Assembly (NCBI GenBank): GCA_018667355.1
Contig: JABIVC010000003.1
Span: forward strand, 1-64,000
Source: Gammaproteobacteria bacterium
Lineage (GTDB): Bacteria; Pseudomonadota; Gammaproteobacteria; GCA-002705445; GCA-002716945
Length of the DNA: 64,000 bases
Direction of reading: 5' to 3'
Shown: piece after piece, positions 17,654-23,343 of the stretch
Numbering within the stretch: the first letter of the stretch is position 1
Layout: each line of letters starts with the position of its first letter
The notes under the pieces: generated by a model
What the model saw: only the letters and a program-made list of their open reading frames with translations
What the model was told of the DNA's origin: nothing
Databases searched by the model: none
Program-made: the position numbers and the translations under genes

Positions 17654-18013
17654 ATGACTGAAATATTAATAAAAGATCTGAAAAACATAATATCTGATCT
17701 TATAAATACTCCTATATTGATTGATAAGTTAGATGAATTAAGAATACAATATGCAGAAATAACTGAGAAATTAGAAAATATAGATATAAATAAAGATAGC
17801 AGTCTTTTTGAAACCTTAAAAGATCAAAGGCTTAAACTAGAAAATCCTCTAAAAAATTTCATAAACTATAAAAATACAATCATATTAATAAAAGAATGCA
17901 AAGATACTATCTCAAAAAGCAAAAATAATGAAATTACAACTATTGCAAAAAAAAAATTAAAGGAGAGCTTACGCCTAAAAACAATATTAGAAGAAAGTTT
18001 AATAAGGTTATAA
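17654..18013 (+). CDS. Small helical protein resembling the RF1 N-terminal (PCRF) domain
   Basis: A 119-residue, lysine/glutamate-rich, mostly helical protein. Its second half (YKNTIILIKECKDTISKSKN, then EITTIAKKKLKESLRLKTIL) follows the residue pattern of the RF1 N-terminal domain. In RF1 this reads a YxxxxxxxxEAxxLL helix, then DPEMxxMAxxELxxLxxxxxxLExxL. The gene ends just where RF1 would continue with LLPKDP. No GGQ or PxT domain follows. The match is by eye and may reflect generic coiled-coil composition. It converges on mupP, overlapping it by 6 bases. Confidence 0.5.
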   Translation: MTEILIKDLKNIISDLINTPILIDKLDELRIQYAEITEKLENIDINKDSSLFETLKDQRLKLENPLKNFINYKNTIILIKECKDTISKSKNNEITTIAKKKLKESLRLKTILEESLIRL

Positions 18014-18670
18014 AGCCAATATTTTAATTAAATCTATAGGGTTTGTTATATTTATATCTGCATTCCATGACAGGATATCTTTTTCGGGTCCCACAAAACC
18101 AAAGTCTGCAGCTACTGTCAACATACCTGCATTTTTACCTGCTAAAATATCTCTCTCGTCATCTCCTATATAGACAGTATTTTCAGCAGTCACCTCTGCC
18201 ATATCAATAGCTTTTAATAAACCTTCTGGATTAGGCTTAGTTTCTTTAAGCATATCACCAGTAACTAGATATTTCACATCTCTAGCAATAGTCAAACCTT
18301 CAAGTATTTTATTAACATATTTTGAATGTTTATTTGTTACAATTCCCCACTTAATATTATTCTTTTTTATATATCCTAATAATTTTGAGATACCATCTAC
18401 CATCTTTGTATGAACGAAGGTATTGATTGAGTACTCTTGCAAAAAATCAGCTCTTATGGATGATGAGTCTATCGGTCTCCCATTAACTTTTGAAGCATAG
18501 TCTATAATACCAACTGCACCTTTAGAAATATGAAGCTTCAATTCATTACAACATACATTTATAAATTTTTTTTCTGTCAAGATAGTATTTAATGCATCAC
18601 ACATATCTTTGGAGGTATCTGCGAATGTTCCATCTAAGTCAAATAATATACATTCTATATCTTTGTTCAT
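18008..18670 (-). CDS. mupP: HAD phosphatase, probable N-acetylmuramic acid 6-phosphate phosphatase
   Basis: The HAD motifs are complete: FDLDGTFADT (motif I), VTNKH (II), KPNPEG lysine (III) and YIGDDERD (IV), with a helical cap between I and II. The family includes phosphoglycolate phosphatase (Gph). Linkage to ubiG points to MupP, which in Pseudomonas dephosphorylates MurNAc-6-P during peptidoglycan recycling. The 220-residue length fits. Its start overlaps the ubiG stop by 4 bases. The MupP assignment over Gph rests on context. Confidence 0.75.
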   Translation of the reverse strand: MNKDIECILFDLDGTFADTSKDMCDALNTILTEKKFINVCCNELKLHISKGAVGIIDYASKVNGRPIDSSSIRADFLQEYSINTFVHTKMVDGISKLLGYIKKNNIKWGIVTNKHSKYVNKILEGLTIARDVKYLVTGDMLKETKPNPEGLLKAIDMAEVTAENTVYIGDDERDILAGKNAGMLTVAADFGFVGPEKDILSWNADINITNPIDLIKILAL

Positions 18671-19359
18671 TTTTTTGTGGAGGTCATGAAATAATTGATT
18701 TTAGTCATACTTGATAACGAAAAGGTATGATCTATAGGGTTTAGTTTGACACCAGATACATCATCAATTTTAAATCCAGCAAGCTCCAGTAATAGCGCTA
18801 ACTCTGATGGTTTAATAAACTTTTCATATTGATGTGTACCTTGTGGGACAATTTTTAAAAAATATTCTGCAATAACTTTAGCAAAAGCGAAGGAGACAAT
18901 ATTCCTATTAATCGTTGAGAAGAATAATGTTGAATTCTTTTTTGTAACTTCAGAAATACTATGAATTAGCTTTTCCTGATCAGGGACATGCTCGATAAGC
19001 TCAAAACATATAACTACATCAAATTTTTTTTTATTTTTCTCAATATAAGATTCTAGGGTAGAGCATATATATTCGATATTTAGATTACTTTCTTTAGCAT
19101 GTTGCTTAGCTATGTTGATAGTTTTTTCTGACGCATCTAATCCTGTTATTTTAGCGCCTTTTTTTGATAACTCTTCAGCAAGTAGTCCTCCACCACAACC
19201 TATATCTAGAATACGAAGACCTTTAATATTGATAGTATTCTGAATATAGTCAACTCTTATTGGTGTCAGGTTATGTATTAGTTTGTATGGGCCTCTTTTA
19301 TTCCACCATTCATGCGCATATATATCAAAATTATCTATTTCTTTTTTATCAATATTCAT
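18667..19359 (-). CDS. ubiG: Ubiquinone biosynthesis O-methyltransferase
   Basis: UbiG performs both O-methylations in ubiquinone synthesis, so the organism should respire with ubiquinone. The SAM site is ILDIGCGGGLLAEELSKKG near residue 55, followed by GLDASEKTINIA. FELIEHVPDQEKL and FFSTINRN match the family. The 230-residue length and the N-terminal HEWWNKRGPYKLIHNLTPIR are typical. It lies 3 bases after the amidohydrolase gene and overlaps mupP. Confidence 0.94.
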   Translation of the reverse strand: MNIDKKEIDNFDIYAHEWWNKRGPYKLIHNLTPIRVDYIQNTINIKGLRILDIGCGGGLLAEELSKKGAKITGLDASEKTINIAKQHAKESNLNIEYICSTLESYIEKNKKKFDVVICFELIEHVPDQEKLIHSISEVTKKNSTLFFSTINRNIVSFAFAKVIAEYFLKIVPQGTHQYEKFIKPSELALLLELAGFKIDDVSGVKLNPIDHTFSLSSMTKINYFMTSTKK

Positions 19360-19362
19360 AGC

Positions 19363-20640
19363 TCAAACCTTAGAATTAATCAACCCAGTAAATTCATCAT
19401 ATAACATATTTTCATTCATTGTCAGGAGCTTTTTATTTTTTAATATTTGCTTACCTGAAATCCATACATTTTCAATATTATCAGATATAAGTTCATTCTC
19501 AATAGAGTTATACAAGCTAAGTGAATTTACATCAATATCATCTACTTTTATAGAAATAATATCAGCACTATAATTAGCTTTAATTTTCCCCATATTAAAA
19601 TTAAGACCTAGTGCATTTGCTCCATTATGCATTATTAGCCCCAACAATTCTTTTTTATCTAGATGATTATTTTTATCTTTATTCAATTTTGATAAAAGCC
19701 AAACTAATCTCATTTCTGTGAATAAATCTAGACTATTGTTAATCGCGCATTCTCCTGTTCCGAGCGAAACTTTGATTTTATTTTTTAAAAAATATTCTGT
19801 ATTACATTTCATATTATGATTTATAATATTTGAAGTTGGTGAATGAACAACATGAACTTTATATTTTTTCATTAGATTTATATCTGATTGTATTACATGA
19901 AAAGGGTTAATTGCAGTGAATGTGCTACTCAATAAACCCATTTCTTCTAAAAACCTAATCGGCCTATGTTTATATTTCTTTTTAAATATATTTAGTTTAT
20001 TTAGATCTTCATGTAAATACATCCTGACTGGGACATCTAATTCACTAATTATTTTAGAAACTTTTTCAAATCCTTTCCTTGATAACATATTAATAGAATT
20101 AAGATTTAAATATAATTTAGTAGATGGATTGTCTCTATATTCATCAAAAAAACTAATGCTCTTCTTGAAATACTCTTGTTCTTTATTCGCCCAGTTAGTT
20201 TTATAGCTCATTATAGGTAGTCCAATGTTTGCCCTTATTCCAGATTCAATAGCTGCCTTAAGTACTATGTCTGGATAAGTACTTGTATCTGTGAATGTAG
20301 TTATTCCATTTTTAATCATCTTACAAATTATAACTTTTGCTGATAAGCTTAAATACATTTTATTTTTTAAATCATCTCTATTTGTAATTGTCTTATTTTT
20401 TAAATATTTTTTTGAAAAAATATATGGTGTAGAAATATTATTATTCACTAGGCCGGGAACTATTATATGATTTTTTAGTATTAGATGACTATTTGTTGAA
20501 TATTTGTTTAGTATTTCTCTTGATGGCCGAACTTCTTTTATAATATTCCCCTCAATAGCAATTGAATGATCCTCTAATAAACAATCATTTTTTGATGATA
20601 ATACCCATTTTGGACTTATTATTTTATCAATATTTTGCAT
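19363..20640 (-). CDS. Amidohydrolase homologue (TRZ/ATZ, MtaD-like) lacking metal ligands
   Basis: Position beside ubiG and opposite gyrA is that of the MtaD-type 5-methylthioadenosine/S-adenosylhomocysteine deaminase in Pseudomonas. Overall fold landmarks remain: IVPGLVN, VHVVHSPTSN, NNSLDLFTEMRL and GANALGL. The catalytic positions do not. The HxH after PGLxN reads NIS; the histidine three before the HE of LHED is Tyr; the AH of the AHxxxL strand is Asn; the Asp of GTDGAASNN is Gly. The 425-residue frame is intact, so it looks like a maintained pseudoenzyme rather than a pseudogene. Alignment was by eye. Confidence 0.75.
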   Translation of the reverse strand: MQNIDKIISPKWVLSSKNDCLLEDHSIAIEGNIIKEVRPSREILNKYSTNSHLILKNHIIVPGLVNNNISTPYIFSKKYLKNKTITNRDDLKNKMYLSLSAKVIICKMIKNGITTFTDTSTYPDIVLKAAIESGIRANIGLPIMSYKTNWANKEQEYFKKSISFFDEYRDNPSTKLYLNLNSINMLSRKGFEKVSKIISELDVPVRMYLHEDLNKLNIFKKKYKHRPIRFLEEMGLLSSTFTAINPFHVIQSDINLMKKYKVHVVHSPTSNIINHNMKCNTEYFLKNKIKVSLGTGECAINNSLDLFTEMRLVWLLSKLNKDKNNHLDKKELLGLIMHNGANALGLNFNMGKIKANYSADIISIKVDDIDVNSLSLYNSIENELISDNIENVWISGKQILKNKKLLTMNENMLYDEFTGLINSKV

Positions 20641-20653: not shown

Positions 20654-20805
20654 CTAAATTTAATATGATTTTAGAGTTAAATCTGTCAAATACCCATAAT
20701 ATCCATTTAAAAGCTATTCTAGCTATCTTATAAATTATGTCGTGTATACCAAAGGTTTATGATAAAATAGTTATTTAATAACGTATAAATGAATATCAGC
20801 AATAT

Positions 20806-23343
20806 ATGCCAGAAAATCAAGAAATAAGATTCGAGCAAGAAATGAGACAATCTTATCTAGATTATGCTATGAGCGTAATAGTAGGTAGGGCATTACCAGA
20901 TGTTAGAGATGGTTTAAAACCTGTCCACAGAAGAGTTCTATTTTCTATGCATGAACTGAATAACGGCTGGAATAAATCTTATAAAAAATCTGCAAGAATT
21001 GTTGGTGATGTAATAGGTAAGTACCACCCTCATGGTGACTCTGCTGTTTATGACACGATAGTAAGATTAGCTCAGCCTTTCTCAATGAGACACCCGCTAA
21101 TTGATGGACAAGGTAATTTTGGTTCGGTAGACGGGGACTCTCCAGCTGCTATGCGATATACCGAAGTTAGAATGTCAAAATTATCTCAAGAGTTATTACA
21201 AGATATTGATAAAAATACTGTTGATTTTTCACCTAACTATGATGGTTCTGAAAAAGAGCCCACTGTATTACCAACGCGTATACCCAACTTACTAGTTAAT
21301 GGGTCTACAGGTATTGCTGTTGGTATGGCAACAAATATACCTCCACATAATCTTACTGAGGTTGTTGATGCAACAATTGCCATAATTAATAATCCATTAT
21401 TATCAGATAAAAATAATATCGATGAATTAATAAAAGTGAGCGGTCTTCAAGGTCCAGACTTCCCAACATATGGTGAAATAAAAGATGATGGCGGTATCAG
21501 AAATGCACTTCTTAATGGCAGAGGTTCTTTTAAGATTAGAGCAAAGCATGTTATCGAGAAAAAAGATAATGATAGAACATCGATTGTATTTACAGAATTA
21601 CCATATCAAGTGAACAAAGCTAGATTAATTGAAAATATCGCACAGCTTGTAAGAGATAAAAAAATTAATGAAATTAGTCATTTGAGAGATGAGTCAGATA
21701 GAGATGGAATGAGATTGGTTATTGAATTGAAACGTGGAGAGCAACATGAGGTTTTATTGGGAGCCTTATATAAACATACTAATGCTCAAACATCATATTC
21801 GGTGAATATGGTTTGTCTAGTTGATGGTGAACCAAAGACATTAGGTTTCACTGAAATATTAAATGAGTTCATTAAACATAGGCGAGAAGTTATAACAAAA
21901 AGAACGCTTCATGATCTTGATAAAGCCAAAAATAAAGCACACATACTTGAAGGTCTTGGAGTAGCATTAATAAATGTCGATGAGATAATCGCGTTGATTA
22001 AAAAATCAAAAAACTCGTCTGAAGCAAAGACTGCCTTGATATCAAAAAAATGGGAGCCTGGTCAATTAACTAAATATTTGGGTATCGTAGATAAGCAAAC
22101 TAATGTCTTTATTAAGAGTGATTCTCAATATGGTTTGCATGGAAAATTATATAAATTATCACCAGTTCAGGCACAAGCAATACTAGATTTAAGACTTCAA
22201 AAACTAACTGGTTTAGAACAAGAAAAAATATTTACTGATTATGAATTAACAATCAATGAGATTAAAGCTTATATTAAAATTCTTACTAATATAGAAGAGC
22301 TTGATAGTGTAATGAAAAACGAGCTTGAGGATGTAAAAAAAGAATATGGTGAATCAAGAAGATCAATCGTTTCAAATGATGAGGGAGAGTTAAGAAAAGA
22401 GGATTTGATTAAGAAAGAAGATATTATAGTAGTCTTAACAAAAGCTGATTATGTTAAACGTCTCCCAGCTGCTGACTTCAAGAGTCAAAAAAGGGGCGGA
22501 AGAGGAATCAATGCAACAAAATTCAAGGATGGCGATGAGGCAAAACTGTTATGCCAAGCTCATACGCATGATATTATATTATGTTTTTCAACATTAGGAA
22601 AAGTCTATGCGATACGAGCTTTTGATATCCCTGACCCAAGTAGACAAGCTCGAGGTAGACCGATTAATAATGTATTACCACTTGAAAGTAATGAATCAAT
22701 TAGCACTTTTGTTGTAGTGAACTCATTTGATGAAGATGCTTATTTATTCATGTCAACAAAAAATGGAATGATTAATAAGATTCCTATTAATTTATTTAAG
22801 AAAATACGTACTACAGGCTTGAAAGCAATTCTGCTTAAACCAGGAGATATTTTACTGGGCGCACATTATACAGATAAAGACGACCTAATCATGTTAGTTG
22901 CCGATAATGGTAAGGCAATTAAATTTTCAGAGTCTGATGTTAGAGAAAGATTCAGAGGCACATTGGGTGTAAAAGGTATTAATTTGTCGAAGAACTCAAA
23001 ACTAGTTTCTATAATAAAACCTTGCGGAGGAGAGATAATCACTGTTACTGAAAATGGATATGGAAATAGAGTTTCTATTGAAAATTACAATACTCAAAAA
23101 AGAGGTGGTGTTGGAGTGATTGGCATCAAAACAAGTACCCGTAATGGAAAAGTTGTTGGTGCAGTCAATGTTGGCCCTGATGACCAAATAATTATGATTA
23201 CAAACAAGGGCAAAACTATTAAGATATCTATAAATGATATGCCTATAATTGGAAGAAATACACAGGGAGTTAGATTGCAAGTTTTACAGGATGGTGAAAA
23301 GCTTGTGGCAATATCAACTGAAACAATTGTAAGCGATGAGTGA
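20806..23343 (+). CDS. gyrA: DNA gyrase subunit A
   Basis: GyrA is the breakage-reunion subunit of gyrase. The catalytic tyrosine is in [12 protein letters not shown] near residue 122. The quinolone pocket [10 protein letters not shown] keeps Ser and Asp at the positions of E. coli S83 and D87, the drug-sensitive state. C-terminal beta-pinwheel blades carry QKRGGRG (GyrA box) near residue 560. At 845 residues it is slightly shorter than E. coli (875), mainly the acidic tail. It overlaps pheA by 8 bases; serC, normally between them in Pseudomonas, is absent. Confidence 0.97.

Follow-up and report, generated by a model that had tools for sequence, protein, structure and literature searches.

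An MtaD orthologue without metal ligands, encoded beside ubiG in a gammaproteobacterial order, is probably a selected pseudoenzyme

In animals, the CRMP/dihydropyrimidinase-related proteins have an amidohydrolase fold without metal ligands and are kept for protein-protein binding. A bacterial case was described in Pseudomonas, where aspartate transcarbamoylase fails to assemble without an inactive dihydroorotase subunit (pDHO, PyrC'), and related pseudo-DHO domains miss the zinc ligands and substrate residues and keep the fold (PMC7053772). Here we describe pseudo-MtaD, a protein of 425 aa that has the amidohydrolase fold but neither metal ligands nor catalytic His nor substrate lid. It belongs to this known kind, the amidohydrolase-superfamily pseudoenzymes. 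Like, very probably, pseudo-MtaD, pDHO is an inactive member of the superfamily that is homologous to an active enzyme, and it is kept for another enzyme. However, pDHO comes from the dihydroorotase branch and both its partner and the requirement for it are proven, whereas the partner of pseudo-MtaD is a candidate and its gene has been deleted in some lineages. The CRMPs are animal proteins of the hydantoinase branch, without close sequence relation to pseudo-MtaD. In the literature that we searched we found no description of an order-wide pseudo-MtaD, and nothing relevant on the mtaD-ubiG-mupP block as such. The best explanation of our results is probably that a former MTA/SAH-type deaminase (MtaD) has become a pseudoenzyme that is under selection and serves as a scaffold or binds a partner.

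The locus and the lost active site

The window, that is, the whole stretch of 64,000 nucleotides analysed here, comes from a genome of 1.03 Mb in 17 contigs. The pseudo-MtaD gene lies at 19363-20640 on the minus strand, with an ATG start and zero internal stops in 425 codons; the first-pass annotation had likewise given an intact frame of this length. That annotation also made it the first gene of a tight operon with ubiG and mupP, and we found the same arrangement: 3 bases separate its stop from the start of ubiG (ubiquinone methyltransferase; 18667..19359, minus strand; TIGR01983, 259 bits, cut-off 103), which overlaps by 4 bases with the third gene, encoding a mupP-type phosphatase (18008..18670, minus strand; best model NF009696 MupP, 150 bits, below the cut-off of 359). 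The divergent neighbour gyrA (20806..23343, plus strand; TIGR01063, 1073 bits, cut-off 877) was used as synteny anchor. An own promoter had been proposed as well. A possible sigma-70 site, TTGACA-16-CATATT with 10/12 matches, is indeed present at 20662..20689 on the minus strand, but promoter-like sites near the operon amount to 23 against 21.4 in shuffled sequence, which is chance level, so the promoter is no more than plausible. Between a YkuD gene and mupP there is also a plus-strand ORF of 119 aa (17654-18013) without Pfam match, with a counterpart at the matching place in genome G006 and none in more distant genera.

Pseudo-MtaD belongs to the amidohydrolase superfamily by its match to Amidohydro_1 (PF01979; 91.6 bits, cut-off 25). 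Among the NCBIfam models, it matches the TRZ/ATZ hydrolase PRK09045.1 best, with 263 bits, well under the 540-bit cut-off, and by this score it would fall outside the MtaD lineage; fold (TM 0.91 to PA3170) and synteny beside ubiG, mupP and gyrA place it inside. The closest solved proteins are 4f0r and PA3170 (4dyk/4gbd), both of the MTA/SAH-deaminase type. MtaD/PA3170 and its solved relatives (also 4dzh and 3lnp; TRZ/ATZ, PRK09045) are alike to pseudo-MtaD in fold and length, at ~24-30% identity, and the synteny with gyrA, ubiG and mupP is common to related genomes. In G046 and G043, distant members of the class, an active mtaD stands in this gene order, and G026 carries mtaD-ubiG-mupP. Pseudo-MtaD is, then, orthologous to the MTA deaminase MtaD/PA3170 both by position and by sequence, in a conserved block of gyrA followed by the divergent mtaD-ubiG-mupP. 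Unlike MtaD/PA3170, it lacks the metal ligands, the catalytic His228, the lid and His173, and it scores under the NCBIfam family cut-off.

For the active site we use the numbers and known roles of TM0936 residues H55, H57, H200, H228, D279, E203, W75, E84 and H173. In the alignment with active orthologues, H55, H57, H200, H228 and D279 correspond to N68, S70, Y208, N245 and G296, and E203 is retained as E211. The first-pass annotation, with N and S for the HxH pair, Tyr, Asn and Gly for the other three and Glu203 as the only listed residue kept, agrees with this alignment at every residue. With codons counted from the ATG at 20640, and all on the minus strand, codons 68-70 (N-I-S), which replace the HxH metal pair, lie at 20431..20439; codons 208-211 (Y-L-H-E), with His200 changed to Tyr and Glu203 kept, at 20008..20019; codon 245, Asn in place of the catalytic His228, at 19906..19908; and codon 296, Gly in place of the metal ligand Asp279, at 19753..19755. 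The loss is larger than had been stated, as it extends to H173 and to the lid LADDLPLMxWLxxHIWPAE, which contains W75 and E84. No copy of the order has the full ligand set HxH/His200/Asp279, His228 is found in 0/20 copies, and none of W75, E84 and His173 is found in any of these 20. Judged from these residues, pseudo-MtaD is almost certainly non-catalytic as a deaminase.

Distribution and selection across the order

We compared 25 genomes of the order, from one family and six genera, which provided 20 readable intact copies; a marine setting is suggested by the sample names of sister uncultured-Gammaproteobacteria MAGs and by the genome type. The gene is at the same position in 21/25 genomes (7/7 of g1, 5/6 of g6 and 9/9 of g5), all with the synteny of gyrA and pseudo-ubiG-mupP. 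One g5 copy is broken, that of G024, a MAG of 69% completeness, and the g5 copies are shortened to ~360 aa, so that even their fold may be reduced. The gene is cleanly absent from G007, G008, G009 and G017, where gyrA and ubiG are adjacent and ubiG is kept. The active site is missing in 20/20 readable intact copies: at the nine active-site columns the ancestral residue occupies 19 of 180 cells, and the Glu203 column accounts for ten of these. Outside the order, 45/45 orthologues from the class have the nine residues unchanged, and the loss in the order is therefore not due to chance. In a seven-gene tree, the basal split separates g5 from all other genera, and the deletions correspond to about three events. 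Since both sides of this split, the deepest in the order, are site-less, the sequences place the loss of the active site before it, and this is no local decay.

The open frame has been held in 20 genomes despite divergence to ~25% identity; a neutral ORF of the same composition would be expected to contain ~5 stops after 0.05 changes per site and ~39 after 1.0. In pairs with dS <1, dN/dS was 0.120, 0.189, 0.198, 0.235, 0.242, 0.250 and 0.290, with bootstrap upper 95% limits <=0.52 in all of them. The comparison of orthologues proposed in the first-pass annotation thus points to purifying selection in the order, and lost catalytic residues and purifying selection are found together, as in a pseudoenzyme. 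We are highly confident that pseudo-MtaD is selected as a protein.

This selection goes along with fast change. Between G000 and G001, identity is 42% for pseudo-MtaD and 74% for UbiG, and pseudo-MtaD is the fastest-changing gene of the block, whereas in active lineages MtaD (58%) and UbiG (59%) evolve at equal pace. The much faster change than in ubiG, together with the four clean deletions, suggests a gene that is real in its role but dispensable; as the genomes without it keep ubiG, no partner strictly needs pseudo-MtaD. Additionally, between G012 and G022 (L033 and L032) ubiG and mupP differ by a synonymous distance of 0.28-0.31, the pseudo-MtaD gene and gyrA by one of 0.11-0.14, a contrast that may reflect a recombination breakpoint or uneven rates.

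Fold, constraint and rival explanations

The AlphaFold2 model of pseudo-MtaD reached a mean pLDDT of 86.9 and a pTM of 0.90 with a 15-sequence alignment, and that of a g6 copy (~30% identity) has the same fold (pLDDT 82.4, TM 0.83 to 4f0r); the input alignments include active relatives, and these may favour the predicted fold. Foldseek superposed the pseudo-MtaD model on PA3170 (4gbd/4dyk) with the TM of 0.91 given above, and the structure prediction that had been suggested as a check indicates that the MtaD fold is kept. The constraint is found elsewhere than in the old pocket. In every gene pair compared, the segment with HxH and the lid ranks first or close to first among seven segments in dN (0.32-0.94), and the former active-site lid is now free to vary. 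The retained columns are structural in type (W12, P62, G112, T114, A359, W393 and G396). A metal site formed by other residues, which would have spoken against the pseudoenzyme, is not visible: the alignment of g1 and g6 copies has no invariant His or Cys, and the lid is variable. A free-varying lid and structural retained columns argue against a new chemistry or ligand there, and suggest that the role lies with the body of the protein.

These observations bear on two explanations that keep the pocket in use. The alternative raised in the first-pass annotation was a switched chemistry, in which the barrel would use a different metal through other residues, catalyse without metal or hold a ligand in the same pocket. 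The retained fold, E211 in 10/20 copies and the isolated His residues that some copies retain at ligand columns would be consistent with it; however, the pocket residues vary from genus to genus, and with no conserved His or Cys and the fastest change in the lid and HxH segment, a switched metal chemistry is improbable. It could also be thought that the protein binds its old substrate without turnover, as a sensor of MTA or SAH that regulates methylation or MTA use, given that the family binds both compounds and the gene adjoins one for a SAM-dependent methyltransferase. The lid (W75, E84) and H173 are nevertheless lost in every copy, so the purine-nucleoside pocket was dismantled together with the metal site, and we give a sensor hardly any credence.

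We weighed two further explanations. In a slow decay, use would have been lost in the ancestor, selection would be only weak, and deletion or shortening would be the end points of a gene on its way out. The clean deletions, the broken G024 copy, the g5 shortening and the accelerated evolution all fit this course, but 20 frames are still open although catalysis had gone before the order diversified, all close pairs have a dN/dS well under 1, and a genome of ~1 Mb would be expected to drop unused genes readily; we regard slow decay as unlikely, although it deserves more weight than the explanations based on the pocket. Alternatively, only the translation of the frame might matter, as a leader ORF coupled to the translation of ubiG. 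The 3-base gap in the window, and a 4-base overlap in several g5 genomes, would suit such a coupling, which would however keep the frame and not the amino acids, against a dN/dS of 0.12-0.29 and a kept fold; also, ubiG is still present in lineages without the pseudo gene. A leader ORF is thus very improbable. The selected pseudoenzyme, put forward in the first-pass annotation as the simplest reading, is supported by dN/dS, the kept fold and the lack of a new metal site, with the addition that the gene is dispensable.

MTA metabolism, candidate partners and meaning for the order

Pseudomonas first deaminates MTA and then phosphorolyses the product, MTI (PMC6302742). The source genome has apt in an operon with an MTA phosphorylase gene (TIGR01694, 293.9 bits, cut-off 274.85), and this presence makes the deaminase step probably redundant; judged by gene content, MTA is probably handled by MTA phosphorylase. 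There, on contig C15 (L112:1426-3411, minus strand), apt and the MTA phosphorylase gene are followed by that of a 191-aa nucleosidase-like PNP_UDP_1 protein that scores under all family cut-offs. MTA phosphorylase matches are found in 21/25 genomes of the order, 13 of them over the cut-off. Across the 25 genomes we did not find a strict complementarity of the pseudo gene with MTA phosphorylase or mtnA, and MTA phosphorylase co-occurs with the pseudo gene. mtnA (PF01008), for the methionine-salvage step after MTA phosphorylase, was found in only 6/25 genomes. We also considered a hidden active MtaD paralogue in the source genome, where the other strong PF01979 match is a dihydroorotase and no second MtaD was found; a further, weak PF01979 match lies in a 555-aa frame.

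In the mechanism that we propose, MTA phosphorylase and adenine phosphoribosyltransferase would already cover the removal of MTA, so that deamination was no longer needed. By analogy with pDHO, the best precedent, the protein would be kept because another protein is bound and stabilised by its body, the beta-sandwich and outer helices. For such a protein-binding or scaffold role we consider the chances about even. UbiG would be the first candidate partner, because it is translated directly after pseudo-MtaD from the same operon, and a self-standing homo-oligomer the second. That UbiG is the partner is a tentative suggestion with a rather low chance of being right, and the more specific proposal of an ancestral, order-wide pseudo-MtaD that acts as assembly or stability subunit for UbiG is, if anything, slightly more doubtful. 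We looked for coevolution in UbiG, where residue 171 is Val in 19/19 examined genomes with the pseudo gene and Ile in 4/4 without it. This is the single tracking column and the gyrA control also has one, so V171 is perhaps due to chance and we did not count it.

Homology-based annotation would credit these genomes with an MTA deaminase that is absent from them. The chemistry was lost once, deep in the order, in bacteria whose genomes of ~1 Mb do not normally keep unused genes, and the protein still persisted under selection. The active outgroups, the many diverged pseudo copies and the independent deletions form a natural series for mapping a role of an amidohydrolase other than catalysis. If the proposed role beside UbiG is true, pseudo-MtaD would be another, independent gammaproteobacterial case in which an amidohydrolase came to serve as scaffold for the enzyme of a neighbouring gene, and ubiquinone biosynthesis would have a new component in streamlined marine bacteria.
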